Position numbers and translations under genes: made by a program | Notes under the pieces: generated by a model | The model's database searches: none | The model's input: only the letters and a program-made list of their open reading frames with translations | What the model was told of the DNA's origin: nothing | Part shown: piece after piece, positions 8,197 to 55,989 of the stretch | Numbering within the stretch: the first letter of the stretch is position 1 | How the letters are laid out: every line of letters begins with the position of its first letter | Assembly: GCA_963556145.1 (NCBI GenBank) | Contig: OY744461.1 | Location: 992,001 to 1,056,000 of the forward strand | Direction: 5' to 3' | Length of the DNA stretch: 64,000 nucleotides | DNA from: Hygrocybe punicea | Lineage: Eukaryota > Basidiomycota > Agaricomycetes > Agaricales > Hygrophoraceae

Positions 8197-9050
8197 TGTA
8201 ATGGCAAGGTCAGGATGGCTGCGGAATAAAGATCCTAGCCTGGGGGTGTCAGTGTAAAAGTGGCAATGAATAGTTAGCAAGCTTCAGTAAGTGAAAAGAG
8301 ACAAAGGAGTAGAAAAGCCACCAAGTAAAACTACTGATAACTATCAAGACCAGTCGAAGCCAACAATGTCGGGTACAGTGGGTCGGGTGTCAGGTGATGA
8401 GAGATATAAGAATGTTGATGGTGGAATGATAGAGAGAGGGTTGAGGAGACCGACAAGTTGAGTAAATGATAGATTTTTACTGATAGGCAGGTTCTGAGTG
8501 AGGGGAAAGGGGGAAACTACTTTCTTATTTTGACATGGCGCTTGGGCACCATTTTTATACTACAAAAATCTCTATCTAGATTTGGACGAGAGTCCTCAGC
8601 CGATGAGGGAGAACAAAGAGGAAGAGAAATGGGGTAGTGATGAGAGAGTTGCGATGCGACGATGACAGGAAAATGAGTGGGAGAAGTAAAAAGCTGTGAA
8701 AAGATATGAAATACTTTTATATATCTCCATAAGGGAGATGGTAGGCACGAATTAGGCAAGTCCGATGTCAGGATTCCAGTCTGATAAGATCCATCTGCAA
8801 TGTTTGGGATTCTGTGCGTTTAGGAGTTAGACCCCTGTACGCAAGTGGCCATGCTAGTCAATATGCATTGGGTTACGTCGAGTTCGAGTGTGGATCACTA
8901 GGGACGTTGGGTTCGAGCGGATTTGTGAGATATCGAGTTTATGGCCTCAGAGGGCCAAGAGCCCTCTACAGCGCCTGGGTGTCAGATTCTGGTGAGTGAT
9001 GTTTTTGAATATGCAAGGTGGGAAGACAAAGGCTCACCATTACTTACAAT
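8197..9050. mobile_element. Insertion(s) interrupting the recombinase gene
   Basis: Colinear recombinase sequence stops near 8196 and resumes near 9051. The intervening 0.85 kb lacks coding similarity. A 9-bp direct repeat GGGTGTCAG lies at 8244-8252 and 8977-8985 and may be a target duplication of an inner element of about 724 bp. The outer limits read TGTAATGG at 8197 and CCATTACTTACA ending 9048, which could be solo-LTR ends, but no matching target duplication is present. Element class is unresolved. Confidence 0.4.
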
Positions 9051-34341: not shown

Positions 34342-34373
34342 CTAGTGGGGTGTGGGCCATTGCTTTGCATGGC
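34342..34373 (-). repeat. Helitron 3' terminus: hairpin plus CTAG
   Basis: On the plus strand GCCAT-T-GC-TTT-GC-ATGGC (34356-34373) forms a 7-bp stem with one bulge and a TTT loop. Ten bases separate it from CTAG at 34345-34342, followed in sense by the target T. This is the canonical Helitron 3' end. Confidence 0.85.
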
Positions 34374-34487
34374 ATATTACTCGTCCCTCCTTTTTTTAGC
34401 AGGAGAACAAATATTAAGATTGAGCATATATAAACAGTACAGCATTATTACCATTACATGACAATAAATTAATATTTGAAAAGTTAT

Positions 34488-37400
34488 CTATATCACCTTC
34501 ATTAATGCAAATTGATCTGGTTGATATACCGTACTGTTGATGAATATGCGGGCAGTAAAATGTGCATCACCAAAGTACACAATTCCTCTCAATGTGTAAG
34601 CAGTGGATATGTCATCTATTGACAAGTTTATAACTTGACTAATTATTAAATTCTCAATAGAGTCAACTGTAAACATGATTAGAGGTGGAATTTTGTTAAA
34701 TGCAATAAATTTAGTAATCTCTCCCCAACACAATTGACATTTGTGCCGTTGTCTATTAACTATGATTTGAGCAAGACATGTTGAGATGGTTCCAGAAAAT
34801 GAATATGAACAATGAAAGATGGCATCACATCTATCATTTTCCAGAATGGTTATGTTTTCACAATTCATACATTTAAGACAAGTTGAAGTCATTGGTTCAT
34901 TTGCTTTCATTATATAATGGGCCAAATCACTTATGGCAATGCCAACTTGACCATAAGGAAATATTTCGAGTTTATCTTGATGCAATAAATGTCTGATTGT
35001 ATTTCTAACTATTTCTAAATCTGTTGTGTGATTCTTGGATCGTTTGAATCCTAAGCTCAAAATCTTTAATATTTCATTGATGCTATTGAATCTTTTTTTC
35101 CAACTTGATGGATCTTCATTCCATATTGCTAGTAATATTGTAAAGAGTGAATCATAAGCACAGCTCCAATCTTGCGCATCCCATATAAACCCTTTTGGTT
35201 CATTTAATTCAATAGTACTTGTTTTTCGTCTTTTTTTCACAATGGAAGATGAACTTACAACTTGTTGTAATTTTCGTTTTTTATTTTGCAATACATTGGC
35301 TGTGGAATTTTTATGAGTGACAGTGATTGGAACAGTTCCTTTTGCAGGAACAAAGTTGAGGTTTCTGAAATCTGCCTTTTGATTTTTGTTCATAGGTTTA
35401 ATTAATTGCCATGGAGAGGGCTGTGTTGTGTATTGATTTAGTTGCTCCATGGCTTTCCATGCAATAGCATGATGAATGTTTTTTGGAATATATGACTTTC
35501 CTTTCCATTTTCTAAATTGATCAATGATAGAATTTCGCTGATCTCCCTTGACATGGTCTGGTAAGAGTCCTTGATATTTCAGTTTGGTAATCTCATCAAG
35601 CAGTTCTAATTCTCTGAATTCTTGCCTGAGATATCCAGAAGCACCACCTGTAATTACTTTAGGATCAAAGCCTTGCATGATGATAGTTCCTGCTGCAGAA
35701 GCACTTCTTGATAAGCAAGTATAATAGGATTGGTGGTTTCTACAACTACTGAGGTCAACTACATTGTTAGGACGAGTACGTCCTTGACATGCATAATCAG
35801 TCATTGCAAAATTAGGCAGTACCAACACTTGTTCTCTTGACAAAGATATCACATCATCATTCGGTAATGAGCACATGGTGGACGTGACATGTTTTGTAAT
35901 CGGAACCACATTTTCAGGAAGTCCTTCTATGTTAATTGTTTTTGGAGGATTCAATAATCTGACAAATAAAGTGTCCAGTACAGTTTGTTGCTCAGGACCT
36001 ATTGCACTCTGCCAACCCACAACTATGCCCTCTGCTCCTTTGGTAATGCAGCACTCCGTTGCATCATTGTTTCTCAGCATCACTGGCATGCCTACACATA
36101 AGTCCAATCTTCCTGGTATATGATCAGAGGATGATGCATGTGGTTGGCTCCAAAGTAGCTTTCGGAGTGAGGGTTCCAATATCTTTGTGTGTCGAATAGG
36201 ATCCAAAATTGTTGACATGTGATGAGATTTTCTTTTGCTATTGGAACTAGTAGGATCATTCCATCTGTCTATGGAATAGAATGATGTTAATGGTCTCCTA
36301 TTTTCAGCAGCAAAACGTTGAATACCAAGTTCATTGATTTTGTCTTTTTGTGCATTCAATGCAGTTATAACTGACACATTCCTGAATTTCTTTTGGGCTA
36401 ATTTTGGATCATTTGGACTTTTTCCTGCAACACGAGTATGAAGAAATGCAATATCTTTGGGAGTACATGCTTTGTATCTCATGTTTTCCAAAGCAAGCCT
36501 CAGTTGGACATCTTCTTCTGACTGATTGGTTTGTCTCATATTTTCACGTAATATAACAACTGTTGTTATTTGATGCCAAAGAGCTTTGCCTATAGCCGCT
36601 TCCTGATTTGCTATAGTTTGACTGGAATTGATTTGGACACCAACGGTTCCAGAGTATAAAGGAGCACCACTCATAGCTGGTGGAAGTTGGCCAAAATCTC
36701 CTGCAAATATCATATTAATGCCACCAAAGGGTTCATCATAAACACCACGTGCTTTTGCACACTGAGCACTGATTTTATACATATCTCTGCAAGATAACAT
36801 TGACACCTCATCAATGAAAATGTAATCCACACCATCAAGATTGGCACGGACTTGTGCAAGGGAACGAGATGATCCTCCCTGATTAATTCCAAGAATGGAG
36901 TGATATGTGGATCCATTTACAAGGGCAGCAGCACCACCGGTTGGTGCAAGAACCACAAATCGATGATTTTCGTTGTGTTTACCAAAAAAACTAGTCAATG
37001 CTTTGATGACTTGTGATTTCCCTGTGCCTGCCATTCCACCAAGATACATGCGTAGCTTATCAGAACTATTAATCAACGTAGAGTGATTGGCAATGATATG
37101 AAATGCTCTCTTTTGGTCAGTGTTCAACTTGTAATCATTGATAGTTATATCAATAAGATGACGATCAGCTCTGTTTGCAGGAATAAACATATGGTTGATG
37201 TATGCTGCATCCACTATCTTGACATCATTATATTGAAAATTTGCCAATTTATCTATGGTTGCTGTGTTTGTTGGTAAATTTTTATTTCTGTCATCGATGA
37301 TTTCTTTTTTCTTTGCAAGGACTGCAGCTCTCCAAAATTTTGCTGATTGTACTACAGGTGGTTCTATAGGTATCAAAGGTCCTATATCTGGGGTACCATC

Positions 37401-40400
37401 AATACAATCATCGAGCCATCCTGACCTTTTCAAAGTTCTTTCAGCTATTAGCATTTGATCTTTCCTCTTTTGTCCTTTTTGACCAAGTTTCAGGAGTATT
37501 TCTGTGTCATTATTGTCTTCATCAATGTTGTTGTTGAAGTCGTCGCCGTTAAATGCAAATTCAGCATTGTGCATGTCATCCAGTTCATCAAGACCGTTTG
37601 AGGTCACCCATGAATACCTTATATCTGCAGTATTATTCTTCTGACGTTTAGCAGAGAAATCATCTCTTGCATCCAAACACTCATACCGTAGACCAAAGTA
37701 TTTCATGATCTCGAGCTCTCTTTTAGAAAACTCATGGTCTACAAAAGCATTATCCCATGTTTGTAATTTACATTTGAGTTCTTTGCCACTTCTCCATGGC
37801 TTGAAAAACGTTAACATTGTACAACAATAATATTCTCGATCACCACGGTCAGCCCTTGGCAAAGTGTTTGGAATAAAATTAGGAACTATGAAGGGATCAT
37901 TCCCTTTCATTTTGGCATGGTGGGTAAGATATTGTGGATGATTGGGATGTAAAGTATAATCATTTTCAAATTTTGTCAATTTATTAAGATCAACTTCATT
38001 TGTTTTATCAACTATTTCTGGGCCTGCATTTTTATTCAAACTATCAGGTTTTAGAATTTTATCTATCTCCATGACTATATCATTATCAACGACATCAGAC
38101 AAGTTGTCATCACTAGAATAGTCAACATTAGTAGGTTCAGTGCAAGAGTCAGACAAATCATCACAGCCTAGATTGTCAAAAATTTGGTTTTGCACTGGTT
38201 CTCTTCTGGCCCTTTTGGTCTTTGTTTTGGTGCGTCTTTTCTTTGGTTCCATAGTGGCAAGACGTATCCAGTCATACAGTGATACATTATCATACAAGGC
38301 TGGTCTGAACATATAATTATTTACTTTGGAAAGTCCAATGTATGCGTCATTATTCTTACCAATAACAACCTTTTGTGCATTATCTTGGTCTTCACATATA
38401 TTGGGAATTTCTTCATCAGACCATGCACTGATAACCTCTTTAACATAAGATCTCCAAAAGAATGGCACAAATTTATAACTGGTGTAGTGATCAGGATTTC
38501 CAAGCACATATAATGAAGCCATTGGAGCACCAATTTCCATTTTGGAGGTGAGTGAATTGACTATTTGTGTAAACAGTTTTCTGACTTTGTCTTTTCTTTT
38601 CAGGTCGCCACCAATCATTTCGGAATTCTTATCAAAAATACTTTTTATCACTTCAAAAATGCTATAGGTCTTCAAGGAGAATTTTGTAATATAATCTGTT
38701 ATGTATGCAACTATGGCCTTTATAGCAGTACCTGATAATAAGCTGGTCACATCAGAATTGCATCGTAGCATATATGTAACTTCAGGTGTCACCGTGTTCA
38801 TCCAAGGTTCACCATGCTTGAGGTTGAGAGCACCAGTGTTAGGTTCTACAAAGGTTTGTTGAAAGATATCACGGGGAAATCGTCGTTTACATTCACCTTT
38901 CGAATTAAGACAATATGGCTTTTTTTTGCCATCATGCCTGTTATGTACATTTAATCGCAATAAAAGATCATCTACAACATCCTGAAACCTTTGCCACCAT
39001 GTTGATCTTTTGTTGTGATATTGACAATTCATGGAACAATTATATGATGGTGGATCTGGCATGACACATGTTGGTGGTTGATATTCAGGTTCCGACATTG
39101 TCTGTTCCATTTTCTGTGATACCTCATCTTTAGAACCTGTCATGAATTGTCCTACACACAAACTTTCCAAATATTCCACTAATCTTTTCTGAAAGTCAGA
39201 ATTTTCACCCATAATTTTGTCACATATTTCCTGAGGTGTAAGGCATCCCTTTATCCACAACAGCATATGAAGATGCAAGGTAAGACGTCCTTGTTCCTCT
39301 ACCGTTGCATAATAACCTGATGTGTTTCCATACAGGCCAGGATGAGATTCATTTATTCCTAATATATGTTTGATGAACATTTCAGTAGTAAAGTGAAAGA
39401 AGCGGGCTCCAGCAACTGGATTGTTTGCAATTAGTTTGTAACAATCCTGGGGTAGACGTAGTTTAGGATAAAACTTTTCTTTGTTGTCAGCATAATATAA
39501 GCATAGTGGGTGATTGATGTCTGCAGGTGCAAAAGTGATAAACCAAGTTGGAGCACCAATATAGGATATCAGAGACCAAATCTCATTTCGCATGTATTTC
39601 TTGTTAGTAATTGAACCTTTGACCTGACCAGCTACGTGATCCAGATCAGAAATGAGTTTATAGCATGCTTTCTCTTCCGATGTATCTGGTTTGACTCTAT
39701 CACCTCTAGACAATCTTTTAGAGAGGTCATCCAAAACAGCTGTATTGATATTCATCAGGCGATCTGCAATATCGTTGAAATTATGTTTGTTAGTCAACAA
39801 ATATCCTCTGGTTGTACTGTCTTTGATTTGTTCTTGATTGAATGCAATCAATGGAAAATAGGGATCGGTTTGAAATCTTTTGTCATGGTACATCAGGAGA
39901 TGTCTTTTGTGCATCATATCACTGATGCTTAAAACATCCTTGTCTATGCTGCTAATACCACCCAAGCCATATGGAAATAGGCAGGGGAACATCATAGGAT
40001 ATAATTGAGAATTATTAAAGAATGATTCTGGATTTCTAGCATGGCTTATGGCAAGAACACCACCATGGTCATCTATCAAGTGCTTGGTGGCTCTAGCTAT
40101 TAATGCTTTTGGACTTGTAATATCTAGATCTTCGCCAGTTACACCACTAACAACAAAGGGACAAGGCCCATCTTCAACACCATCTTCCTCTTCATTGTCA
40201 AATGCACTAGTGGCTTCTGGTTCCTTATTTGTGTCTGCTGGTCGATATGCAACCACAACAGGAATTCCATGATCTGGATATTGTGCTAGATTTTCATAGG
40301 AGATATCTAAATCATAGTAATCCATGTGATTCAATTTCAGCCATTCTAAAGCTGCAGAAACTCGCCTTCAGCGAACCAATAAAGGCGTTCGCTCCATGTC

Positions 40401-42134
40401 TTCTGGAGTTGGTCTGGCAGGACCCGTGAAAATGAAGGCTAGCACTTCATCAAGTTCTTTAATTGTTGGAGGCAACCGTTGATATATCTTTGGTGTTGGG
40501 TTTTGAAACATGATGGCATTTGCTTTCATTTTATGCATCCCAGATGAGACACGAACAATACATTTGTTGTGACGAACACGGGCAATCAAAAGTTGTTCAG
40601 CAAATGTTAGATTTTGAAGTTGTGCAGGAATTCTTCCCATCCAAAGTCCATTTGCCAAAGCATATTTGGGAGTTTGGCCTTTGTTTAGACTGAGCACACA
40701 TGGCTTGCATATCCATTTACATGTCTCATCTAGCACTGGACCTTTAATATCCTCTATTGGATCAGAACAATGATGTCGTTCACATCTTGTGATTCCCATA
40801 TTTTCTCTAGTTAATATTTTCAGATTAACCTTTGTTTTTGACAATAAAGACATGTTCTTCAATGCAACCAATTGACCGCACACGGCACACCCACTTTCTT
40901 GAAAACATTCAGGTGATGTATCTCTGCACCAGTTGCTGATTATGGTTTCCTTCAATTCAATAGATGGTGGAGGAGGAGGAAATGATTGCTCATCTGACTT
41001 GTCCAATTCTTCTTTCATTTTAGTCTGAGTTTCTTCTGTTTCGCACTCATATGTTTCTGTCATTTGTTGTCTTTTGTACCACTCTTTACACTTATCTTTA
41101 TTTGATTTAATATCATGCACATGAAAAATAGAAACATGAGTATCACAAGCTGAACAATTATGCCTCATTAATGCCACAGATAGATCTTGTCCATGTAATC
41201 TTCGTAATGTCTTTGACAAATATATACCATGTATTGTTGTTATTTCACCAATATCCTTCACCGTCAACTTTGGCAGAAGTTCATGCAAAGGCATTTTGAC
41301 CCACAAATATTTTTTTCTATCTCCATATACAATGTTGGCAGCCTGTTGATCAACATGATCCACGTATTCAAATAGTATGTCGGAATCATGGTTGATATTA
41401 TTAGACGGTAGCATGAAAGATTGAATAAAGCTAAACTTGAATGTTGGTATTCGTTTACCACCACCAATGTAGTCATATCTATGAACGGAATTTATATATA
41501 AAGATTTAAACAAGTTTCTGAATAAATTCAAATTGAACATAATTATGTTTGAACGGCTATGCCGTATTATGAAACATAGTGTGGTCCACAGCAACGTTGC
41601 ATGTGATAGAGAACTAGTAATACAATGAAACAAATATGATCTGAAATCATGTCGTCTCAATAGCGATCGCATTAGCAATGCATTGATCATTTTACAACGA
41701 CATTGAACAGTGATAGGTTTGAGAAGACAATACAAAGCGAAGAGATATTTAGGAGGTAAGAAATATGTTCTGTCATATTGAATAGAACGTAATTGCATTT
41801 TGAACGCGCTATTTTTAAATGTAGTCCAAACGAATAATGGATCGACCGTCAAGTTATCTTTTGTTATTTCAATGAACTTTACACATTGTGTTGCATTTAT
41901 TTGCATCAATATTGTTGCATCGCCCTGATCTGGGGCAAACTCATGTTCTATGAGTTTTCTTTGAAAAACACCCAATTCTTGGGTCAATACCGATATCAAA
42001 GGAGCGGATATTGGTTCAAGAGAGATATACATAAGTTGGTCTTGGCATAGTTGTGGAAATATGGTTGCGTTTGCAAGGAAATGTAGATAAGTCAATACCG
42101 CAATGCAGACATGCATGATATCGTGGAGATTCAT
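34488..42134 (-). CDS. Helitron Rep-helicase (RepHel) with C-terminal cysteine-peptidase-like domain; one in-frame TGA
   Basis: One frame of 2,549 codons from ATG 42134 to the stop at 34488, broken only by TGA at 40370-40368 (CGA would give Arg). The N-terminal part has Cys clusters (CSACD, CAVCG, CKPC) and a DUF6570-like block up to the TGA. Next is the Helitron-like N/Rep domain with HUH motif HLHMLLW (about 39280-39256) and the paired tyrosines YITDYITK (about 38710). The Pif1-type SF1 helicase follows with Walker A GGMAGTGKS (about 37045-37015) and Walker B FIDEVSM (about 36825-36800). A further 320 residues contain DWSCAYDS (about 35170), two C-x-x-C pairs and GDAHFTAR (about 34570), the layout of a USP/C19-type cysteine peptidase with a zinc ribbon. 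It nicks, unwinds and pastes the element by rolling-circle transposition. Activity depends on whether the TGA is suppressed, edited or a true null. Confidence 0.88.
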
Positions 42135-42199
42135 GTGGATTGGTGATAGTAAGAGAAAGCACCGCCCATGTATCTATTTAACTAGTTAAGTGGTTCGGA

Positions 42200-42598
42200 T
42201 CATGAACAACAATTAACACAATTGGATTGATCATATGACATTATCTTATTTGTAAGCTCTTCCAAAAACATCATAAGGTGTGCCTGAAGCTTTATAATGT
42301 TTTTATTCAATTGAATGTTTTCGTAACATACGTAATATTCCGGTACTGAATAGTCATAGCTTTCCTTGGAGTGATGGTTATGCTTGCCACCATATGAGGG
42401 GGATTTGTTACAGTTGTCACAGGGGATGGATGAGGAATTTACCATCAAATAATATTGAGATCTCCACTCAATTATTTTTGTTGTTATCATAAGTCCGAAA
42501 ATGTTGTAAAAAGTGGATAACGTTATGTTTTCGACATTTTCGGACTTATGATAGCAACAAAATAATTGAGTGGAGATCTCAATATTATTTGATGGCAA
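42200..42598 (-). CDS. Short ORF with two C-x-x-C pairs, doubtful
   Basis: A 132-codon frame just upstream of the RepHel ATG in the same orientation. It has CDNCNK and CVNC motifs, but its first 50 codons lie inside the long hairpin at 42422-42617. It may be an artefact or a spliced leader peptide. No family recognised. Confidence 0.2.
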   Translation of the reverse strand: MPSNNIEISTQLFCCYHKSENVENITLSTFYNIFGLMITTKIIEWRSQYYLMVNSSSIPCDNCNKSPSYGGKHNHHSKESYDYSVPEYYVCYENIQLNKNIIKLQAHLMMFLEELTNKIMSYDQSNCVNCCS

Positions 42599-42617
42599 AA
42601 ATTCCTCATCCGTCTCC
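42422..42617. repeat. Long inverted repeat (about 82-bp arms)
   Basis: Arms 42422-42504 and 42534-42617 are nearly perfect inverted copies. The innermost 60 bp match around ATTGAGATCTCCACTCAATT with two differences. They enclose a 29-bp loop. It lies in the 5' leader region of RepHel and could be a MITE or a structured regulatory RNA/DNA element. Confidence 0.8.
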
Positions 42618-43083
42618 TATGTGTCTCCCCATTTAATTGGTCCATAAAGTTGGCAGTTCTGGTTTATTACATATATTCAATTTGAATGTTCATTAACTCG
42701 AGTCATAGTAATCCAAGGTTGTCCTTCTCATGTTACCTTCTCATGTTACCTGTGGTGGCTGTACTGACAAACGTGAACTGAAATTAATACACTTAATTTA
42801 GGCAAACAGGTTTTCAGTCACCAAGATCGATGTCTTATGTGATATCTGTGTATACTTATTATCTTACTCAATTGTTATGGTCATAGGAAAGTAACACAAG
42901 CCATTTTCAATAGAGCAAAAAAAGAATTGTACAGATATTGTACAAATGTAAAGAATGGCGGTAGAGGAGGACGTTGAGGGCACAGATTAACAACAGATTA
43001 CCAGAAATCAACGACTGAGATAAAAGTGTCTTTAGTCAAATATAATTAATACTCCACAAAAAGAGGACTTACAGCAACCGAAA
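42618..43083. other. Spacer between RepHel and cargo, no gene
   Basis: AT-rich. Contains a short direct repeat TTCTCATGTTACC at 42726-42752 and no coding signal. Confidence 0.5.
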
Positions 43084-44998
43084 CTAAGGGCCAGGGTCCA
43101 GTTTAGATGTTGACGCCTTGGGAGATGAAGGCCTTGTTTGGCTCGGCGTAATCGAGACTAGGATATCGTGAGGAACGATATTGCTCCAATCTACATCCAT
43201 TGATAAACCGCCTGGCTCCGCCGGGGTCGACGACTGATGGCGTGACGATGCACGCGTATTTGGACGGAATCCTAGGATATTGATAAGATCAGATGTGAAA
43301 TCTATATAGAGTGTGATGTGCATACCCGGAGTTGGAGACTTCTTCAGAGGCTTCGCTGGCTGGAGCCTTTCTGCGATAATACCGGCTTGCTCCGATGCCA
43401 GATCCAACTTCCTCCTCTTTGCTGTCTCGCCGTCCTCGTGATCGCCGCTGAGAGAGTCCTGTATGGGTTTGGGAGGTCCATCGTTGTCGTGCATGATTAC
43501 ATCGTCATCAGAATGCAACAACCCCTCCCATTCTGGTCCTAACAAGCCCAACTTTGCGGATTCCAGTGGCACATCATCCGACTCGGAGGAGACGGGTGGT
43601 TTAACTTCCACTGTCAATTTTTCGGATTCCGATTTCTTGGATCCGCGCGATGGCGCAATTTCGACAGCGACTGCGAGATGTCAGTGCATTATTCAGAGCA
43701 AAGTGAGTAACGTACGCATTTGAGCCTTTGATCGTTTCTTCTTTACCGGGGCTACGTCCTCCTCCATCTTGATATCGTCTATGCATGAATGAACAATATG
43801 CGTTATAAGCTTGATATTTAGAATTTAATAACTCACCGTCAGCGTCGTCATCGGGTTTGGACTTCACGGTGCGTTCTGTGATGATGAGGAGTTACCGTGT
43901 GTGATGATCACAGACAATGAAAGTACTTACTGGGCTTGGGCTTGGGCTTGGGCTTCTTTTTGTCCTTCTCGGACGAATTGTCTGCGCCACCTGAATATTC
44001 AGTACATCTATACACTGCTATGGTTAAAAATTTGTACAAACCAGCGGAGGATGTCTTCTGTTTTTTGACCGATTTTGACTTGGCTTTGCCCTTGCCCTTG
44101 CCCTGGGGAACCAGCTCTTCTGCAAATGTATTATATTATTAGCACATTCACACATGTAATTATAGATCATACCTTCATCGTCCTCCACCACATCGGCATT
44201 GACGAGGACACTATGTCCTTTACACCAAGCAATAACATGACCGATGATTTCGAGCTTTGTGGCGTCCGGAAGCCCACCGAACGACCAATTTGCAGAGGTT
44301 CCGCTGTGCCATGCTGGCACAGATTCGTCGTATTTCGCCCAATCTATGATGCCAGATGTCATAATCCATTTGTCTGCCAATGCGTATATATACTCACCGA
44401 GGTCCTCTGGCATGGTCTCGGTGCTAACAGCGCCATGTTGAATCAATGCCGATGGAGAATGCTTGCCGACATAAAACTCTTTGAGGAGCCAATCGTCGAA
44501 AATCTTGCTTCGCCAGTCACGGGCAACCTCGTTGGCCTGTTTTGCGACCAAAACCTCTGCCCAAATTTCGTCCATGACGGTGTCGGTATACTTGAGGTAA
44601 TCCCGAAGTAAATCGGTCCCTTCCTTATCGTTTTTGACGTAGTCCGGCGAGTAGTGGGGTGCCTTGTTGTATGCGACGGCTGCTGTCGCGTAGATGTACA
44701 TATCCATTTGATAAATCAATCGACGCAGCGGTTCCTCGTATCGTTCGGGCATTTCCCGCCATAACTCGCCTCGGGCGGTGGCATCGTGAGGGTGGGTCTT
44801 CAGTACATAGAGATTACGAGAGAAGACGGGAACGGTGCCGGATTCCTTGTTGGGTGCCGGAATCTTCGGCGGGACCATGTACTGGATTTGGAAGATGCGA
44901 TGCAGCTCCTGCAGCTTTTTGGGCGGCGCATCAGGCCAGTATTTGAAAGTTGCGGGATTGACGGCGGGAGTCGAAGTTTTGACGACTGGCAAGGACAT
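43084..44998 (-). CDS. Helitron cargo gene A: nuclear-type protein, 532 aa, seven exons
   Basis: Exons complement(44998-44173, 44119-44042, 43990-43931, 43875-43837, 43778-43716, 43670-43326, 43271-43084) join into exactly 533 codons. All splice sites are GT-AG, introns are 40-54 bp, and all six introns are phase 1, so exons 2-6 are multiples of three. Residues 1-275 form a globular, Trp/Tyr-rich helical domain (KYWPDAPPKK, ELWREMPERYEEPLRRL, SANWSFGGLPDA). The rest is disordered and strongly charged. It has Lys-rich tracts with KPKPKPKPKRTVK and KKKRSK that look like nuclear localisation signals, acidic patches and Ser-Pro sites. No known enzymatic motif. It shares orientation with RepHel. 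Lack of decay suggests recent capture or continued use. Confidence 0.8.
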
Positions 44999-45340
44999 GG
45001 TAGCTGTAGTAGAATCTTTGTGGTGGGCGTCTGAGGGAAAAAACGAGGGGAACGGAAAACGTTGGATGTCAGGGTCGATGCCCTAGCCTATGAAGCAACT
45101 GGCCAGGTCAGATGACCTGTCAACGACACATGTTCGGCATTGTATACATTGATCGGACACGCGGTGTACAAATAACATACAACCAAACAGATTCTGAAGT
45201 TGTGCCGTAATACATCCTTAAAATGTCGATAAGCGCTATTTGTCATGTAGCTATACAAATATATATTGTTAACTTGTGACATGTCGAAGAGATCGAACAT
45301 GCTTGATGTTAATATACATAATGGTATGGTCATTAACATA
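44999..45340. other. Upstream region of cargo gene A
   Basis: No gene recognised; presumably the promoter of gene A. The minus-strand frame at 45417-45088 has no motif and runs into the repeat array. Confidence 0.4.
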
Positions 45341-45344
45341 GACA

Positions 45345-46245
45345 ATGGATTATCGAACGCTTGTCGAACACTCGTCGAACAGGCCAAACAGTGTTCGAAA
45401 AGTGTTCGACAAGTCAATGCTACATCAATAAATCAAGTGGAATATATATTAACGTAGCAATGACTTGTCGAACACTTGTCGAACAGGCCGAACACTGTTC
45501 GACAAGTGTTCGACAAGTCATTGCTACATCAATAAGTTAAGTGTAATATATATTAACGTAGCTACGGCTTGTCGAACACTTGTCGAACAGGCCGAACAGT
45601 GTTCGACAAGTGTTCGACAAGTCATTGCTTTGTTAATAAATCAAGTGGAATATAGATTAACGTAGCAATGACTTGTCGAACACTTGTCGAACAGGCCGAA
45701 CACTGTTCGACAAGTGTTCGACAAGTCATTGCTACGTCAATAAATTAAGTGTAATATATATTAACGTAGCTACGGCTTGTCGAACACTTGTCGAACAGGC
45801 CAAACACTGTTCGACAAGTGTTCGACAAGTCATTGCTTTGTTAATAAATCAAGTGGAATATATATTAACGTAGCAATGACTTGTCGAACACTTGTCGAAC
45901 AGGCCGAACACTGTTCGACAAGTGTTCGACAAGCCATTTCTACGTTAATATATGTTCCACTTAATTTATTGACGTAGCATTGACTTGCTGAACACTTGTC
46001 GAACAGTGTTCGGCCTGTTCGACAAGTGTTCGACAAGTCATTACTACGTCAATAAATTAAGTGTAATATATATTAACGTAGCTATGGCTTGTCGAACACT
46101 TGTCGAACAGGCCGAACACTGTTCGACAAGTGTTCGACAAGCCATACGGACATTGATTAACGCATCAAGATGCATATGACTAACCGAACACTTGCCGAAC
46201 AGTGTTCGGCCTGTTCGACACGTGTTCGGCAGGTCGTTACATTGT
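45345..46245. repeat. Tandem satellite of about 104 bp with perfect palindromic core (array 1)
   Basis: Eight to nine units with about 104-bp period. Each contains TGTCGAACACTTGTCGAACA, a 10-bp spacer GGCCGAACAC, and the exact inverse TGTTCGACAAGTGTTCGACA. The linkers are themselves inverted (GCTACGT...ACGTAGC around an ATATAT centre). The last units (45985-46240) are inverted or degenerate. The many 60-70-residue plus-strand frames here are repeat artefacts. The array separates divergent genes A and B. Confidence 0.9.
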
Positions 46246-46249
46246 TATT

Positions 46250-46514
46250 CATTCTAAAGACAAATATGGGTGCACAACCAACCCCTTGCCGATCCAACCG
46301 GGGGAGCATCATTGTTGCCATTGTCTCCTGACACGAATCTGATATCATTGATAGTCAAAACGATTATCCAAACTTGATTAACTCTTCTTCTCCTTCACAC
46401 TCACCATCTCACAACACATCCTGAGTTATAGAACACATACCGGTATATCACAGTACCATTCTGAACCCCGTTGAATTTACAAACTAACATAATCTGATCT
46501 GTTAGACCTTCAAT
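46250..46514. other. Presumed promoter/leader of cargo gene B
   Basis: Non-repetitive spacer between the satellite and gene B, with no clear TATA box. Confidence 0.35.
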
Positions 46515-48333
46515 ATGCCCAAATATCACAAGGAAGTTGGCTACGAAGTGTGCCGCCACATCTGTCCAGGACGAAACTGCCTCTCGATGCAGACGCAAAC
46601 TATCCTCTGGAAAAGGGAAGGAAGTTCCTGTCAGCGCCATTGTGGATCCGCAAGCAAGCATCCAAATTGCATCGCATCCGGTACCTGTCCTCTATCCAGC
46701 TGTATTGGACGGAAGGGCACAGAAAATTCCATAGGTGTTCGAAATGCTACTGAAGAGGAACTTGCATTGTTGCCATCGACGGCGTCCAATACACCAGATC
46801 CCACTTCCGATGTGGAGATGGAGGATGCAGCCATGAGCACGATTACACAGTCCGTCAGGACCGATCCCGTTTTCCACATAATCTTTGTTCTTGATCCCAC
46901 CACCCGTATTACAAGCAAAGCCGCTGCAACCAATGATCTTGCATTCGTCAACGTTACGATTTCACAAGACGAGTACGAAACCGTCTCGCACCTCGATGGT
47001 TATATTCACAATCTCAAGGCGCACAAGACGCGATATTTCGTTTGCATGCAGGAATGGGTTTGTATATTTTAAAAATGTATGGAGAATTATCGCTAAAGAA
47101 TACTTTCCAATTCCAGGTTTATGTTGCTATGCGAATGCACCACTGGCGGTGTGACGAGCCCAACAGTGCAATACGCCGCTTCAATGTTGAATACATGTTT
47201 TGGCCGGAGTTCGCTCATGCCATGCTCAACTCACCGGGGTCGAACATAACATGGAATAAGTTCAAATCCACCGATTGCGTATTTGGTGGTGTGGACATGG
47301 GAATGTCCTATATGTAAGCGTGTCAAACATTTTTGCCGAGTTTCCTTTCTTTTTGATTCGGTTAATTCGAATGTCATCTATAGTGGTAATCAATATGGTA
47401 TAACGGTCGAAAACGTGTCGACATTCTTGGCCGGAATTGACCAGCTGTGTCGAACGATTCAGGTGTGGCCACCACCGAAACAAATGAACACCGTGCATTC
47501 GAAATGGACGCAGATGCAAAACTTGCTCCATGTCGCATTGTCAAGGACGCACACGATGCGACCACAATCAAGGCTGCTGAAGGACGGTGAACCGTTTCCA
47601 CCGAACATTGTTTTGAAGCGAACGCATAGTGACACCGGTCACCATGTGTTGTTCCCGGGCGATCCAAGGCGGAATTGGGACTATATGCGCCTGAACTGTG
47701 AGGTCCCCGGTTCACGTTGGTTCGGTCAAACCTATGTTGAGCCGCTGGCCAAGATCGGAGAATGGCGAGTGTTTTTGTTAGGTGGAAGGGACATTTACAC
47801 GGTCCATACGCATTACAACAAAGAGAGCAAATCATGGAGGTGGGATATTGTGACGACCTTCTATACGTTAGAGGAATTGAGGTAGGCAGATGCCCTCCAT
47901 CTCGCATTACATGTTCACGAGTTTTTGGCATTTTCCAAGATCGTTCCAAGCACAGGGAATGCTCATGAAGACCGATGTTTGCAATCCGGATCACGGCTCC
48001 ATTGCAATTCGAGATCAAGCAAGACAGCAATTCTTCGGCTTCGTACGAGACACCTACGAGGGGCTGTATGCCATAGAGTCGACGTTGATTGGTGGGAAAC
48101 CTTCAATGAGTGTATTCTGTCGCATGGACATTTCGCTCATTGTTGATTCAAACACCAACAATGTCAATTACTTCGTGAACGAGATCGAACGGTATCACAC
48201 CTGCAGCTTGTGGTCCAACATGAAGCAAGGCGCGAAATCCGCTCGGGCACCAATCGGATCTTTTGCGGACACATTTTCGGCGGTATTTTATAAATGGCTT
48301 GTAGACATTACAAATGCATACTCATATTTTTGA
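46515..48333 (+). CDS. Helitron cargo gene B: ATP-grasp-like protein, 543 aa, four exons
   Basis: Exons 46515-47057, 47117-47313, 47384-47881 and 47940-48333 splice to 544 codons with stop. Introns are 58-70 bp with GTTTGT, GTAAGC and GTAGGC donors. The C-terminal half reads like a fungal ATP-grasp-type protein. VLKRTHSDTGHHVLFP could be the phosphate-binding strand and loop. WFGQTYVEPLAKIGEWRVFLLGG matches the conserved E-x-R strand of the fold in part, and CRMDISLIV with YFVNEIER resembles the metal-binding R-D...N-E end of such enzymes. Substrate is unknown. The first 75 residues are Cys-rich and atypical, so the true start or an upstream exon may differ. It is divergent from gene A and convergent with gene C. 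Confidence 0.7.
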
Positions 48334-48508
48334 ACTTCACTTGTACATTAGTCAACTTTAAATGTCACAAATCGGATCTCATGTCTGAGAGGCACGAAAC
48401 GCTTGGATTTCAATGATAGGTACATTACAAATTCAAGGCAACATAAAGAGAATTGGCAATAGGCCACGCTGCATGGCACACTAGTTTCATGACGAGAAAG
48501 ACGACAAG

Positions 48509-50529
48509 TTAATGAGAGACGCCCAATACCATCACCCACTGCACATTTAGGGAAATACTCTTCAACAAATCATCAGAGCGTTTGAAGGTATTGATCGTGT
48601 GGCCGACCACAACGCACGATTCTGCAGGAACATCGCCTGGAAAGTGGGGGAGTTTCTGAAGTATTTTGAGGGTGTCGGTAAAGTCCGTTTTAACTTTCCG
48701 GGCATCATAGATTGGGACTATGAATACAGGCATCAAAAACGAAACCAAGGACATTGTGTGAGAGAGAATAAAACTAACCAATGTCATGGAATGACAGCGC
48801 AGTCTTTTGGTAAGATGGAGCGGGACGTCGAGTAAAAGGACTAGACTGCACGAATTTCGAAGAGGAAGCTTCTATTGAATATGAGTAAGGATTGATAACA
48901 GAGCATTGAATGTATACTCACTGCTAGGAGATGCATCCATCCCACTTGCCGCTGTCGTCGAGAAGGACAGAAAGCCCTTATATAGTTGTGCACGAAATTC
49001 CGCCTCACCAGTGACCATTCCAATGGCGCCAACATACCGCTCCCATTCTCCTGAGAGTAAAGCCCCTTGGATGACTTTGATCAGTTTCGTGTTCCCACCA
49101 ACTTTTGGCTCATCAAGGAAGCATGAATCGACTAGAATGACAGAAGTGAAGATCATTGGGATGGCACCAGCAACGGAGTGGAAGAAACTACGCCCAAATG
49201 CTCCAGTAGAGATATTGGCGGGATCGTCACGAGAAAGATTCGAGTACTTGCCAGATCGAACAAAGGTCACTGCAGAGAACAGCAAACTGTTATGCGATGT
49301 GAATTGTCTTTAACCATAAAGTCCTAGCTGACAGCTTACTTTTGGTTGACCTTGCGAATGTTGCTGATAACATCGCTGTACTGAGGATTGCCATTCCCTA
49401 TAGCACTAGACCAAGATACCATGGCCGCGGCCCTATTCAATATTAAGCATTGCTTAAGAAGATAAAACCGAATAGTTACTTAATGTTGACACAGTCCTTA
49501 TATGTATCGACCAACTGAGGGTCTCTTGTACCAATGTCGGACTCATCCGTGTTTGGAGAGCGTATGCTAAGCAAGGACATCAATTAAAAAAATAATAGAC
49601 AGATGTAATGTACCTGGTGATTTGGTTTTGTGCATATGTCACAGCTCCATCATCGCTACTGGAAACATTGTCGTCACTGATATCATGAAGATGGGTAGTC
49701 TTTGTGACTTTGGAGGAAATCGCCTTCATGGTTTTGATGGATGTATCAGAGTTGCTGATCATTTATTAATATATGAAGGACAAGAATCATATGAAGTATC
49801 ATACCGAAGACCATTATCTGCATTTGATTTCTTAGAACCGAATTCGAGTTTTGCGATAGGCCTACGACATGTCTAACATATGACCAATTATTCAATTTCC
49901 AACTCACATGAATGTTTCGTCGCTGTCGTCATCCTCATCATGTAATTGATGCTGGTTTGACTTTGTCTTCTTCGATGGAGAAGAGAATTTACTATGTAAA
50001 GCGATTAAAGAATACACAAATATAAAAGACATTATTTAGAGCTACTGACCTGTCTTCGTCTTCCTCTGAAGCATGCCGCCTTTTACCGCTGAATATAAAG
50101 AATATTAGTTTGCATGAACAGTATAAATTGAACTTGCAAACCTTGCTCTATTGGTGGTCTTCCTGGACTGCCTATATTACTGAAGTAAATCACTAGTATC
50201 TGAAAATACAATTCATGAGACACACCTCATAGACGAGACGGGTTTGGCAATGCTAGCGACGCTATGAACACTAATAACGTCTTCGTCTTCGGAGTTGGCA
50301 ATACTACTGGGTGGTTTAGTCATGGTGGATGAATCAGAATATTGGAATAAACACGTACACTTCATCATCAACAGGCTTGGTGGTGGTGACCTTCTTACCC
50401 TTCCTAGAAACAACAGTATGACCTTTATTCAGAACGAGCAGCAATACATGAAAATAAATATACATACGAAACGGCGCTTGATCGAGCTTTGGACTGAGTC
50501 TTCACATTCACAGACTTCTTAGGGGCCAT
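48509..50529 (-). CDS. Helitron cargo gene C: 460 aa, 13 exons, function unknown
   Basis: Exons complement(50529-50468, 50403-50359, 50303-50226, 50171-50142, 50088-50050, 49991-49908, 49861-49805, 49754-49614, 49566-49480, 49432-49340, 49286-48922, 48871-48779, 48717-48509) join to exactly 461 codons. The first ten introns are all phase 2, so exons 2-10 (30-141 bp) are symmetrical; the last two are phase 1. Residues 1-205 are basic then acidic and disordered, with an NLS-like GKRRHAS and KKTKSN. The globular part includes FGRSFFHSVAGAIPM, EWERYVGAIGMV, and a C-terminal VPIYDARK...CVVVGHTINTF...NVQWVMVLGVSH segment. I believe related uncharacterised proteins occur in Agaricomycetes, but no function is known to me. 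The gene is intact. Confidence 0.8.
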
Positions 50530-51433
50530 TGCAAAGATAAGAGCTTTAGGGCGAGGAATGAATCTGTGCGAGATATCGTAGATGAATGAAGGGTCGGATG
50601 TGGACGATACCATTGCGCTCTCATCGCTATTTAAGTACACTGAGACAGATCGAATACAATAAAGAACTCGTTTATGGAGATCACACCGGCAGGTATGAAA
50701 ACTACATCTGTTGATGGTTTGAAGGAGAACTATTCGGATCATAGCGCCATAAAAATGAAAAAAAATCAGGGACATTCCCCATGATGTAGAACCCATGATT
50801 GACCAGCTGTTACGCTCAGCATCATCCAACAACATGGATATGGATTACTGGTATGGAGAATAATCAAACACTAAGTCTAATTAGGATTTTGGAATGTAAA
50901 ACAGCTGTCACCACATGGAACTGATCATAAGATCATAACACAGCCAAATCGGAAATAGAAGTTTATGTGACATATATACTCATTTCCAAACAAATACAAA
51001 CATCGGATCAACTATACTGACAGTTGCATCGGAAACAAATCATTCTGAATGGATAGGGGTTTCCTTTTAATGCTGTACAATAAGGAGGTCAAGCATTACG
51101 ATAGCTGTCGATGTATATCCTGTCCTATAAAATGGAGAAAAACAATAAGAATCTATTGAGAAGATCTGCAACACAAGAATGCAAACACCATACAGACATC
51201 ACAAGTTCATGGAGGATGAACATGATGCACTTCCATAATCTCGATGACGATCGAAAACGATTCATGATAAAACAGTCGAAAATTGCATTTGAATTATAAA
51301 TCCCACTTCCACTTTGCAAATGGACACCTATTACGATTTCAAAAGCGCATGTCAGTCCATATACCACTGAAGGCATTCATACATTCAACTCTACTTTACA
51401 GCTGAACATTTAAGTAATCTCATATCGACACGG
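50530..51433. promoter_or_regulatory. Intergenic region between divergent cargo genes C and D
   Basis: 900 bp with no supported gene. It must hold both promoters. The minus-strand frame at 50835-50425 and the plus frame at 51111-51299 lack motifs. No unambiguous TATA element located. Confidence 0.4.
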
Positions 51434-52495
51434 ATGGACAATGATGACAGTCAACTCGCCAATGCTACAAATGTATGTTCAAATTTTACGATGTATGCTG
51501 TGTTTCTTTACATTTGCAGATTTCGAATATCAATGTAGTTCATAATGACTCACCAAATTGCTGGAAACTTACACGGCCGAGTACTGATACCACCGAGCAT
51601 GAAGAACTTGTCTTAAGCTTACAGGCGATATTGGTGGCCAAAGACCTACCACCAATCACCAGCAGGTATATTGTTCCATCACATAAATCGTAAACAATTG
51701 ATATACATATATTTTCCAGACCACCCGAACGTCGAACACCATTTCTTCGTCAGAGCATCCTTATAGCAGGTCTCAACATACCACTGTTCGAATCGTACCT
51801 TGACAACCTCCGCATCTTACATCAGAAACTGGCCCGTACTTTCCCAGAACGTGCAATGCTGGACTTCACGTCATCCACCTATATTGAATACACTGCATTA
51901 TCTATTGGCACCCGATACTTCACCGATCGCCGACATGACAATGTTTCATACCATATTCCATTCGAACACAATGTCGATCCCAAAGGTATCCTGTCATCCA
52001 TGAGCAATACTCGATACTTCCATGGGACGGATAATAAGGTCCTTTATTTCAAGTTAACATCAGACGGAGGCCGGCATTGGTGAGTGCTCAGCACAACAAT
52101 AGTTTGACCATTGATAATGATATAGATGACAGCTTTGTACCTGCCAGTCCAACTTGCTTCAGGATTGGTGACATTGTAGAAGTCCAGATGACGGTATCGG
52201 CGGTTTCAGTCAAGAACGACAAATTTAAGATGATACTCAATCTGCGCTCATTAGCACTGGTCAACAGCGAGTTTACCGAGGTACCAGACATATCTAATAA
52301 TTCAATTAATAATAACTAATGTACATCCAGAATGCGACGATAGGTCGAACGAAGGCACCTCATCCTGCTCTCAATACTATGACCAGGATTAATATCAAAC
52401 GTAATGTGGGTTATGTCCAGTTGACAGACGATGGTGAAGATGTCATAGAAACCCGAAGACGTTTGACCAACCTGAGGATGAATGAAGCCGATTAA
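51434..52495 (+). CDS. Helitron cargo gene D: OB-fold-like (RPA-like) protein, five exons, one problematic junction
   Basis: Exons 51434-51472, 51520-51665, 51720-52079, about 52126-52280 and 52331-52495 (TAA). Exons 1-3 join cleanly and encode a domain with RRTPFLRQSILIAGL, MLDFTSSTYIEYTALSIG, HIPFEHNVDPKGIL and GRHW. Exon 4 reads SPTCFRIGDIVEVQMTVSAV followed by KFKMILNLRSLAL, a five-strand pattern resembling an OB-fold. Exon 5 ends LKRR-like (IKRNVGY) and is charged. The natural GTGAGT donor at 52080 and ATATAG acceptor at 52125 give TG+A, a stop. A 53-bp intron with a weak GTCCTT donor (52039-52091) would keep frame but removes conserved-looking residues. The gene is either alternatively spliced or broken by a small deletion. 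Confidence 0.6.
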
Positions 52496-52985
52496 TATCT
52501 ATTATAATTACATTGTACAGTTACATGTGAACATCAATTTTATATAATATTATGTTCTGCAATACGTTCACAAGTGAAATAAAAACACAAATAGTTTCAT
52601 AAAGTGACTGGATATCTGAGTATCATTTAATCGTAAAAAGTCGTCATCATTTTCCTGTGAATATAACTATTCAAACCGATATGGTATTTCTCATTCAATG
52701 GTCCGGCCTAACATGCATGGACATTTGCTCAGTACCTTTCAAAAACCTAGAATTAATTGATAAATGTATGTATTGTACACACATATCATATAAAATTTAT
52801 ATTGTTGTGTAGTAAGAATGGGTTACTTGGATTACATATGGAAAATTTACTGAACACTTTGTTGAACAATATTGGACCCATGTAGCTACATCACAAAAAC
52901 ATCCGATATACTGCACTTAGATCTTGCCTTTCCACTGCCAGACATCCGATATACTGCACATACCATTGGCTGTGCAATGGCAGTA
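52496..52985. other. Spacer, no gene
   Basis: AT-rich region downstream of gene D. Direct repeats of CATCCGATATACTGCAC (52898 and 52946) are visible. Confidence 0.45.
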
Positions 52986-53725
52986 CCCCTGATTAAAACC
53001 GAGACACTTGTCGAACACTTTGTTGAACACTGTTGAACGGTTTTTTGGCCTGTTCAACAGGTGTTGAACAAGTGTATCATTAATAATACAATGTGCATTG
53101 TAAATCTAGCTACACCTTATATAATGTACGTAACTTTATTTATGCAAATGTAATGCTTCAGATGAAGCCTGGAACACTTGTCGAACAGCTTGTCAAACAC
53201 TGTTCGGCCTGTTCGACAAGTGTTCGACAAGTCCATCATTAATAAACTCAATGTGCATTGTAAATATATCTACACCTCATATGATGTATATAAAGTACGT
53301 ACCATTATTTATGTCATTGTAATGCTTCAAATTAAAGCTTGGACACTTGTAGAGTGGCTTGTCGAACACTGTTCGGCCTGTTCGACAAGTGTTCAACTAG
53401 TCCATCATTAATAAACTCAATGTGCATTGTAAATATATCTACACCTCATATAATGTATATACAGTATATATACAGTATGTACCATTATTTATGTCATTGT
53501 AATGCTTCAGATTGAAGCTTGGCCACTTGTTGAACACCTGGTTGAACACTGTTCGGCCTGTTCGTCAAGTGTTCGACGTGTCCATCATTAATAAATTCAA
53601 TGTGCATTTTAAATCTAGCTACACCTCATATAATGTACATACCTTTATTTATGCAATGGTAACGCTTCAGATTGAAGCTTGAACACTTGTTGAACACCTT
53701 GTTGAACACTGTTCACCATATCTGA
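52985..53725. repeat. Palindrome-bearing tandem repeat, period about 160-180 bp (array 2)
   Basis: Four to five units, each with a core of the form ACACTTGT-(T/C)GAACA...AACACTGTT(C/G)GGCCTGTTCGACAAGTGTTCGAC, then TCCATCATTAATAAA, a GTGCATTGTAAAT block and a TGTAATGCTTCAGATT block. The palindromic core is the same as in array 1, but the linkers are unrelated. The array lies in the 5' third of the Helitron. Confidence 0.85.
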
Positions 53726-53769
53726 CCAGTGTCCGATGTTCCTCCTGTAAATAATTCTAATACATATTG

Positions 53770-54120
53770 CACAATATATGTATTTGTAGACACATTTGAT
53801 GTATGGTTGTCAATTACACTGGCAGTTCCTCAGAATACAGCTGGGACACTGGTTGAACCCGTCACAGAGCAATGTTCAGCGCCTTCCACTCATGTTAATT
53901 TGTAGTATTACTTATTCCCAATTTGGAGCCTGTGATCCGGCTGCCTTATTGTACTTTCTGATTGGGACAACAACTTCTCACAGTCAGCTCCGCCCAGTCA
54001 CACGGTTTCATAATTATTCCCAGGGCTTCAAAATTGTTCCCACAGTTTCAAAAAATTGTTCCCACGGCTTGGCAAATTAGAGTGTGACCCTGAGTTTTGA
54101 GAATCCACTGTATAGAACGA
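53770..54120 (-). repeat. Helitron 5' terminal region
   Basis: Sense strand starts TC at 54120, preceded by host A (T54121 on plus). About 60 bp in, three imperfect 25-bp repeats of the type TTCAAAATTGTTCCCAC occur at 54006-54066. No gene. Confidence 0.7.
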
Positions 54121-54985
54121 TTCCCTTATAGGGACTCGTAACAGGTCCACCTCCTTGGCCTCTGGGATGACCTTGGCATTCCCCACAAGGAAAAGAAACA
54201 GGAATGGGGGGACTCCCTCATGATTATCAGCTTCCAGGTGGACCCTAACATCCTCACCATCATCATGCCCCCTGACTGCTGGATGGAACTTCTGGACACC
54301 CTCCATACTTTCACAACTCCTGGCTGCTGGTATCCCCTATGAGATTTCCAATGTATGGCCAGTTGGGTTAATTGGGCACTCAATGTTTACGCCTCCTACA
54401 CCCTGGCCTGTTCTCCCTGTACCACAAGATGTCTGGGAAGTCCATTCCACACAAGCACCTCTGGGTCAATTCTGCTGTGGTCCACAAACTCTCCTGGATC
54501 ACAACACATGTCGAGGGTGTCCACCTGCTTTCCTCTGTCACATGGTCATTATCTGATGCCAACTTTACTTTGATTTTGGATGCTTGCCTGACAGGGATGG
54601 GTTTCTGGTCCCTGGGACTTGTTAATGGTCACCAGTGTCTTTTCAGCATGTTGGATGCCCAGATCTTTTATCTCAAGGCCCTTGCTGTCCTCTCTGCACT
54701 CCACTACACCCCGCTCAACATCCAGCCACTTCCGTCCCACGTCGCCCTCTTTACCGACAACTCCAACACAGTCGACATATTCAACACTCTCCATGCCCAA
54801 CCCTCCCACAACCCGATGGCCACAGTCAACCTCTCCATCCACTTCAATGTCCAGTTCTGGGTCTTCCACATCCCCGGTTCTGACAACATCATCATGGATG
54901 CACTCTTGCATGGCCCCAATGACATTGTCCGCTATGCTGCCCCTATTATGCGCATTGTCTCATTTGAACCCCCTCATCTTCCGGT
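54121..54985 (+). pseudogene. DIRS-like retroelement, right part: RT end and RNase H
   Basis: Resumes the RT frame directly after the Helitron: LLGLWDDLGIPHKEKKQEWG, then IISFQVDPN. The RNase H-like segment includes WVNWALNV (54360), an acidic-site stretch LILDACLTGMGFWSLG (54570-54620), a second acidic block LFTDNSNTVDIFNTL (54745-54790) and VFHIPGSDNIIMDAL (54860-54905). A TAA at about 54136-54138 and frame shifts near 54340-54370 interrupt it. Confidence 0.75.
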
Positions 54986-55000
54986 GGGGGCAGCACTGTT

Positions 55001-55989
55001 GTGACTACAACAACTTGTTCAGCCAGGCAACCCTGTAGGGCACCTTGGCTGATCTCACAGTTGCAGCACAAATGGGCAGTCATGATGGACTGTGCTATTG
55101 AACCCAGTACAGCGGATGCATATTCTTCTGCACTTGAGTCTTATCTTTGTTTCTACTCTGCCCACCACTTCTTCCCGGCCCCCACAGCCAATACTTTCAG
55201 TTTCTATATCATATACATGTGCTTCCATATCAAGCCCCAATCCATTGACAACTACCTTTCTGGCATCTGCAACCAACTTGAACCCTTCTACCCAGACGTC
55301 CGTGCTCTCTGTCACCACCACCTCATTATGAAGACCCTTGCTGGTTGCAAGAAACTATGCTCCACCACCGTCACCCACAGGTGTGCCCTCTCCTGGATTG
55401 AACTCTCCTCCCTCTGTGCTTCTTACCCTGTTCACCCCTCTTACGACAATGCACTCTTCCTTACTCTTATCTCAACAGCATTCCATGGCCTTCTCCAGCT
55501 TGGAAATCTTGTTTGGCCAGACTTGCTTCATCTCCAGGACTACTGCAAGGTCACCATGCGCAGCTCTGTCTCTCTTCATGATCAGTCCTTTGAGTTCTTC
55601 CTGCCTGGGCACAAGGTGGACCATTTCTTTGAGGGTTCCCATGTTCTACTCCACCATACTACAACCCTGGACAACCCCCTGCATGTTTTCACGTGTTACC
55701 TCCAGTTACACAATGGCCTTTTCCCTTCCACCCTGAACTTTTTCTTTGATCGGACAGCTCCCTTCCTACTCATTTGTGGTTCCTCCATTGCTTACACTGC
55801 CATTTCCCAGACCCATCAGTGGCCACTCTCTCCGCTCTGGCAGTGCCACTGACAGTGACTGACCTTGCTTCTGCAGGTGTCCCACCTTACATAATCCAAT
55901 GCATCAGCTGGTGGGTCTCTAACACTTTGCAGATCTATGTCCGCAAGCACCTGACACTACAAGCTGCCTTCTTGTTTGCACGGTGCTGA
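55001..55989 (+). pseudogene. DIRS-like retroelement, tyrosine recombinase
   Basis: A 283-codon frame contains STADAYSSALESYLCFY, IKPQSIDNYLSGICNQLEPF and box I as FHGLLQLGNLVWPD, where relatives have L-L-R-L-G-E; the catalytic Arg is Gln here. The H-x-x-R box survives only in another frame at about 55824-55850 (GHSLRSG). The Tyr segment NTLQIYVRKHLTL (55920-55955) is in a third frame. It is inactive. Together with 32226-34341 and 54121-54985 it forms a gag-RT-RNaseH-YR order typical of DIRS/Ngaro elements. Confidence 0.75.

Follow-up and report, generated by a model that had tools for sequence, protein, structure and literature searches.

The question raised by this 64,000-nucleotide stretch of the Hygrocybe punicea genome (the window, taken from contig 1 of a 92.2-Mb genome in 42 contigs) is why a Helitron, a rolling-circle transposon, carries four multi-exon genes, A to D, in addition to its own RepHel gene. 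The four genes lie inside the termini of the element, accompany RepHel in two element families (F1, the family of the window copy, and F2), do not change order or strand from one family to another and show constraint when families are compared. They are probably accessory genes native to a large Agaricomycete Helitron lineage: selection has maintained the set, in one order, in related families, and the genes therefore appear to be working parts of the element rather than stray host genes.

All four genes are located between RepHel and the 5' end of the element, and GT-AG splicing gives models with no internal stop in any of them (Table 1). A preliminary description, made from the letters alone, had placed the genes on a Helitron in the order A minus, B plus, C minus and D plus; the spliced models bear out these positions, order and strands, and the termini bear out their carriage by the element. 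The length of 543 amino acid residues (aa) given there for B stands, while those for A (532 aa) and C (460 aa) are replaced by 550 and 471 aa, small exons 4 and 5 of the C model being uncertain. Three genes had been called fully intact; since all four models have only terminal stops, D is open too in the window copy. Among the F1 rows covering each gene, the frame is open in 8 of 17 for B, 13 of 17 for C and 11 of 15 for D. Although the first 70 codons of B are also open in a second frame, the ATG frame is the one to which the diverged B of F2 aligns, and this supports the model that starts there. A compensating pair of frameshifts at this start is rejected, both because no such indel is prominent in the other 16 F1 copies spanning the site and because of the F2 alignment.

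Table 1. Features of the Helitron and its genes, in window coordinates
Feature	Position	Strand	Description
Whole Helitron	34342..54141	-	3' end (CTAG, hairpin) at the low coordinate; defined by copy boundaries and in-frame flank join
Helitron 3' terminus	34342..34401	-	...GCCATGCAAAGCAATGGCCCACACCCCACTAG then T; hairpin and CTAG
RepHel	34488..42173	-	Helitron_like_N, PIF1, upstream DUF6570; one in-frame TGA
Gene A	43084..44998	-	550 aa, 6 exons; C-terminal half lysine- and acid-rich
Palindromic array between A and B starts	45360..46145		104-bp unit x 7.6
Gene B	46515..48333	+	543 aa, 4 exons; Cys/His-rich N-terminus, putative ATP-grasp-like domain
Gene C	48509..50529	-	471 aa, 13 exons; charged N-terminus
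Gene D	51434..52495	+	285 aa, 5 exons
Second array near 5' end	53047..53714		169-bp unit x 4.0; half-sites as in the A-B array
Helitron 5' terminus	54082..54141	-	TTACGAGTCCCTATAAGGGA...; TT instead of the usual TC

The ends of the element, set by comparing copies, define a single Helitron of 19,800 bp. RepHel matches Helitron_like_N (PF14214, 114.6 bits) and the PIF1 helicase (PF05970, 74.5 bits), both above the Pfam cut-off, as a canonical Helitron does, and its two frames (1959 and 601 aa) give no Pfam match, at E up to 1, to the AP-endonuclease domain that distinguishes a Helentron. The one stop previously noted in RepHel is a single nonsense codon, the TGA at 40368-40370, which is a sense codon in all three other copies that align there (a fourth copy examined gives no alignment). 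The CTRR terminus and nearby hairpin of a canonical Helitron are present: CTAG is found in 8 of 8 ends examined, and the hairpin arms, GCCATGC/GCAATGGC, are visible in the window sequence. As to the A/T insertion site of canonical Helitrons, the eight left ends examined in F1 copies all have a host A adjoining CTAG, and the host base on the opposite (5') side is T in three and C in four of seven F1 copies. The canonical 5' TC is absent, the 5' end being TTACGAG in seven of eight copies; in the eighth, the end was not found within the stretch examined. When the element is excised in silico, the flanks join in one open frame, ...KYMPTK followed by QVHLLGLWDDLGIPHKEKKQ... (KYMPTK/QVHLLGLWDD), so that the insertion was precise and left no target duplication. 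No target-site duplication is found at the window site, as judged from this join, and none is visible at six other paired ends.

The block from 43000 to 52600 recurs, whole or in part, at 18 or more scored loci including the window copy, so chance is ruled out; at the other 17 loci the main pieces are 98-99% identical and the smaller A-side pieces 94-99%. Scoring was confined to the best candidates of each search (A 140 of 335, B 98 of 553, C 138 of 1106, D 136 of 834, RepHel 3' end 40 of 706 and right end 40 of 371), so that copy numbers are lower bounds and a partner that seems absent may simply be missing from the list. The protein search of the genome thus gives at least 140 loci for A, 98 for B, 138 for C and 136 for D. 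All four genes are high-copy on these lists, and a single-copy host homologue could still sit among the unscored candidates. The RepHel 3' end is present at 40 or more loci at 98-100% identity, and of the best 40 right ends, 24 match over their full length at 98% or better, one matches in part at 99% and 15 are at 93-95%.

When the scored loci are chained, 10 clusters contain RepHel, A, B, C, D and the right end, 8 lack RepHel alone, 8 lack the right end alone and 23 have just A-B-C-D. Partial clusters include 17 with A-C-D, 21 with C-D and smaller groups; RepHel ends stand alone in 6 clusters and right ends in 11. For the linkage analysis each locus was entered once, without its later exon rows and without a RepHel row at 89%, and 137 of the 138 C loci were covered. 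Because chaining groups loci by element strand by construction, the nearest-neighbour test was repeated without the strand assumption. A lies within 8 kb of B at 74 of 98 B loci, with the expected side and strand at all 74, and D lies within 8 kb of C at 104 of 137 C loci, 103 as expected and one on the opposite strand, leaving 33 without D. A is within 12 kb of the RepHel end at 31 of 40 loci, all as expected. A or D would be found within 8 kb of about 2% of random sites, and A within 12 kb of 3.6%. On the same strand and within 22 kb beyond the RepHel 3' end, at least one of A to D is found at 38 of 40 loci, and all four are listed at 19 of 40. In three F2 clusters (G000:C35:1919580-1932606, C34:144658-165075 and C40:1669298-1681201, the last with its second C not listed) B-C-D occurs in tandem, perhaps from read-through of rolling-circle replication.

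The copies fall into families defined by identity to the window copy. Members of F1 are 96-100% identical in A, 89-91% in B, 90-96% in C and 91-96% in D. In F2, identity is 93-94% over 205 aa in A, 76-77% in B, 73-74% in C and 67-70% in D, while the RepHel 3' end is 98% identical in DNA. F3, mostly at 83-91% and with stops, is a decaying family; two of its clusters carry the right end at 94%. F4 has 93-96% in A, 91-94% in C and 90-95% in D, and F5 66-71% in C and 58-62% in D. One stretch each was read for F3 and F5 and two for F4; for F2 the reading covered three stretches, drawn from two copies, and one additional left end.

Blocks have been exchanged between these families, as the two F4 stretches show. 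Each, about 8.5 kb long, is a mosaic in which an F2-like A-array-B part (92-97% in DNA) is followed by F1 sequence (98-99%) through C and D, so that F4 is an F2/F1 recombinant. The switch lies near window position 48280, by the end of B, and is identical in both stretches, which points to a single recombinant that was then copied. In 15 clusters A, C and D follow the F4 pattern, namely in 13 of the 17 A-C-D clusters and in two with an F2-type B. In the one of these 13 that was checked (L050), B is F2-type and falls below the scored list.

The repeat arrays follow the families. The F1 array has a dyad built of TTGTCGAACA half-sites, and the exact 10-mer occurs 35 times in the window, always inside the element, with 29 copies at 45340-46240 and 6 at 52980-53760. 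F2 has a different array at the A-B start region, with an 82-bp unit repeated 6.6 times and a dyad of ACCGAACA. The F2 stretch L033 contains ACCGAACA 31 times, 30 of them at the A-B start region, and the adjoining L047 has four more about 0.7 kb beyond D; TTGTCGAACA is absent from both. The F3 array is of the F1 type, and both F4 stretches have the F2 type, matching their F2 A-B part. The half-sites of F1 and F2 have the core CGAACA in common. These paired, family-specific sites suggest recognition by an element protein. One F1 copy, L023, carries between the array and B about 970 bp of inserted sequence (locus positions about 7940-8910) with many CAG, CAA and CGG runs.

Selection is visible between families. 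By the NG86 method, the ratio of nonsynonymous to synonymous substitution rates (dN/dS) between F1 and F2 is 0.098 for A (dS 0.27, 204 codons of exon 1), 0.115 for B (dS about 2, 529 codons) and 0.082 for C (dS about 2, 219 codons of four exons); for D, over 266 codons, dN is 0.21 and dS is saturated, so that the ratio is not computable. These ratios are rough, since synonymous sites are near saturation and A and C are compared over 204 and 219 codons only, and at about 0.1 they indicate that the genes were kept functional between families. The F1-F5 ratios are 0.141 for C and 0.148 for D, and the F1-F3 ratios are 0.165-0.291 with stop codons excluded. No stop is found in the F2 exons compared, while F3 copies carry stops. 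Change among F1 copies has another character: in the region 46250-52600 of the window copy and 17 other F1 copies there are 303 singleton changes, 219 of them C>T or G>A, and 190 of these 219 are at CpG. About 34% of CpG sites are changed, against 1-1.5% of other C. This pattern suggests methylation of the F1 copies rather than repeat-induced point mutation of the CpA type.

Several observations weigh against native accessory genes. No selection is visible among F1 copies, where the changes look neutral: 71 synonymous changes are seen against 92 expected and 129 nonsynonymous against 181, a similar shortfall relative to non-coding rates; shared and singleton variants have similar nonsynonymous to synonymous proportions (p = 0.79); and the shared variants in D are one synonymous and eight nonsynonymous, opposite in direction to constraint. 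The F1-F2 comparison itself is made near synonymous saturation in B and C and beyond a computable ratio in D. Linkage to RepHel is seen on the scored lists for F1 and F2 only; none is seen for F4 and F5 among scored loci, for which no dedicated search was made, and neither A nor B of F5 is among those loci. Genes also stand alone, in 28 clusters for A, 14 for D, 13 for C and 10 for B, and relatives of C in other species number 0 of 6100 public protein candidates at E up to 0.001. The preliminary description had taken a ratio near one in Helitron copies as the sign of passive capture; the F1 copies, taken alone, give this sign, whereas the F1-F2 ratios of about 0.1 for A, B and C do not. Neutral change of this kind is expected for any transposon gene once it has inserted, and decay after insertion combined with constraint between families would be the pattern of transposon genes. 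Within this genome, the proposal in that description of a co-travelling cassette rather than random capture is supported by dozens of loci with an unvarying gene order and strand, by the RepHel linkage in F1 and F2 and by the between-family constraint.

The same evidence bears on other origins of the set. If four host genes had been acquired once and amplified with the Helitron without any function, the neutral, CpG-driven changes in F1 and the stops in F3 would be explained, but not the gene order kept by diverged families, the dN/dS near 0.1 or the absence of stops in the compared F2 exons; such passive capture is very improbable, and is rejected as contradicted by the F1-F2 constraint. That the repeated block arose by segmental duplication of the chromosome instead of transposition, as copies so long and nearly identical might suggest, is extremely improbable, since exact ends with differing flanks are found at 8 left and 7 right ends and no target duplication is seen; the unrelated flanks contradict it, and it too is rejected. 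A more distant origin, in which A to D are the remnant of a second mobile element or plasmid fused long ago with the Helitron, is compatible with native accessory genes. In its favour, the set possesses a divergent start region and a repeat array of its own, F4 shows blocks swapping as units and 21 clusters of scored loci have C and D only; against it, the set is bracketed by F1 right ends and RepHel ends. This origin is quite unlikely. Also unlikely, to a lesser degree, is a host-directed role, such as counteracting silencing, by which the genes would help the element to persist rather than to move. The failure of Pfam to find a known replication domain in A, C or D, the fact that an ATP-grasp ligase would be unexpected in a transposon and the CpG decay, which suggests host methylation of the copies, would suit such a role, while the family-specific repeats at the A-B starts and beyond D point, indirectly, to a DNA-level role on the element.

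The protein searches give few assignments. B is probably an ATP-grasp ligase, as the best fold matches of its relative P0001 are the RimK, D-Ala-D-Ala ligase and LysX ATP-grasp enzymes; B differs from these in its extra Cys/His N-terminus and in being encoded by a transposon. The earlier label of ATP-grasp-like is better supported than before, although the profile matches stay below cut-off: P0001 matches RimK at E 0.018 (15.1 bits against a Pfam cut-off of 21), a second relative, P0002, matches R2K_3 at E 0.0081 (16.8 bits against 26.3), and neither B nor these relatives has an ATP-grasp match above the curated Pfam cut-off. B itself has no ATP-grasp match in Pfam, only a sub-cut-off match of its Cys-rich N-terminus to Metallothio_yeast (E 0.0056). 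Pfam assigns no family to A, C or D, A having only a low-complexity match at E 0.22, and finds no known replication domain in them. PDB sequence searches with the B and D alignments give no useful match. D relatives are present in four named Agaricomycetes. An OB fold for D is unproven: D has no significant match to an RPA or OB family, one relative matches OB_MEIOB_N at E 0.2 only, and the predicted structure of the relative P0003 has a pLDDT of 38, too low for use.

The set quite probably serves the rolling-circle replication or expression of the element itself. In this view an element protein (A, or B through its Cys/His N-terminus) would bind the repeats of its family, both in the A-B start region and close to the 5' end. 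B would use ATP-grasp chemistry to join an amino acid or peptide to a protein, and C and D would work together with RepHel, either on DNA or elsewhere in the nucleus. These individual roles are guesses, each of them doubtful. A little more doubtful again is the full picture of RepHel and A to D as a five-protein rolling-circle replicon with an iteron-type control region, in which the ATP-grasp ligase would modify an element protein and new families would arise by swaps of A-B and C-D blocks with their matching repeats. Retention of the set by diverged families makes A to D candidates for components still missing from the Helitron machinery. The element protein and the element repeat offer a testable pair, and should B act in line with its fold, the known parts of eukaryotic transposons would gain a protein-modifying ligase.

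Known systems, as far as the available parts of the cited papers describe them, share some of these features. The extra genes of fungal Helitrons have been described as captured genes whose origin is unknown. Pleurotus ostreatus HELPO1 carries capA-capF, and capB is also present alongside RepHel in a number of further basidiomycetes (PMC4289320). HELPO1 resembles the present element as an Agaricomycete Helitron with one to four internal extra genes, mostly of unknown function, but it measures 1.5-13.7 kb, its RepHel has about 1400 aa and the cap genes are placed downstream of it, whereas A to D are on the 5' side; its 5' end is given as T[C/G] (PMC4289320). The available part of that account mentions neither a four-gene set shared by diverged families nor family-specific arrays or an ATP-grasp gene (PMC4289320). 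Plant RPA Helitrons likewise have an extra gene kept by the lineage and thought to serve the element, as well as tandem repeat blocks, but this is a single RPA-homologous gene (PMC4683698), and D has no significant RPA or OB match. Helentrons with OTU, VTD and AP-endonuclease domains are also rolling-circle elements with added enzyme domains; there the domains are within the RepHel frame (PMC9741609, PMC6431247), whereas the present element has no AP-endonuclease match and ends in CTAG. Capture of a full-length host gene by Helitrons is called exceptionally rare (PMC6431247). No report of the four-gene set, or of a Helitron with an ATP-grasp gene, was found in the open-access literature searched, which includes few subscription papers and neither preprints, supplements nor Repbase, and the only work found there that joins Helitron and iteron concerns yam geminiviral sequences. 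From the known Helitrons with extra genes the present element differs in its four genes kept in order by diverged families, the family-specific arrays, the 5'-side placement and the ATP-grasp-like gene.

Some smaller features concern RepHel and the element ends. The C-terminus of RepHel (34491-35183, minus strand) has a Cys box, DWSCAYDSLF, CxxC pairs and a His box, GDAHF, reminiscent of a cysteine protease; it has no Pfam match and no notable PDB sequence match. The host frame interrupted by the Helitron covers 33547-34341 and 54142-55852 and stays in frame when the flanks are joined. The interrupted gene is presumably retroelement-like, and four flanking open frames give no Pfam match to a retroelement domain. 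At the 5' end, 54131-54141 (TTACGAGTCCC, minus strand) is nearly identical, in inverted orientation, to 34377-34387 near the 3' end (TTACTCGTCCC, plus strand), a possible imperfect inverted repeat. The copy L018 (G000:C35:5158443-5165240) breaks at the equivalent of window position 49797 and continues directly into an inverted Helitron 5' end, a junction that is a nested or end-to-end insertion.

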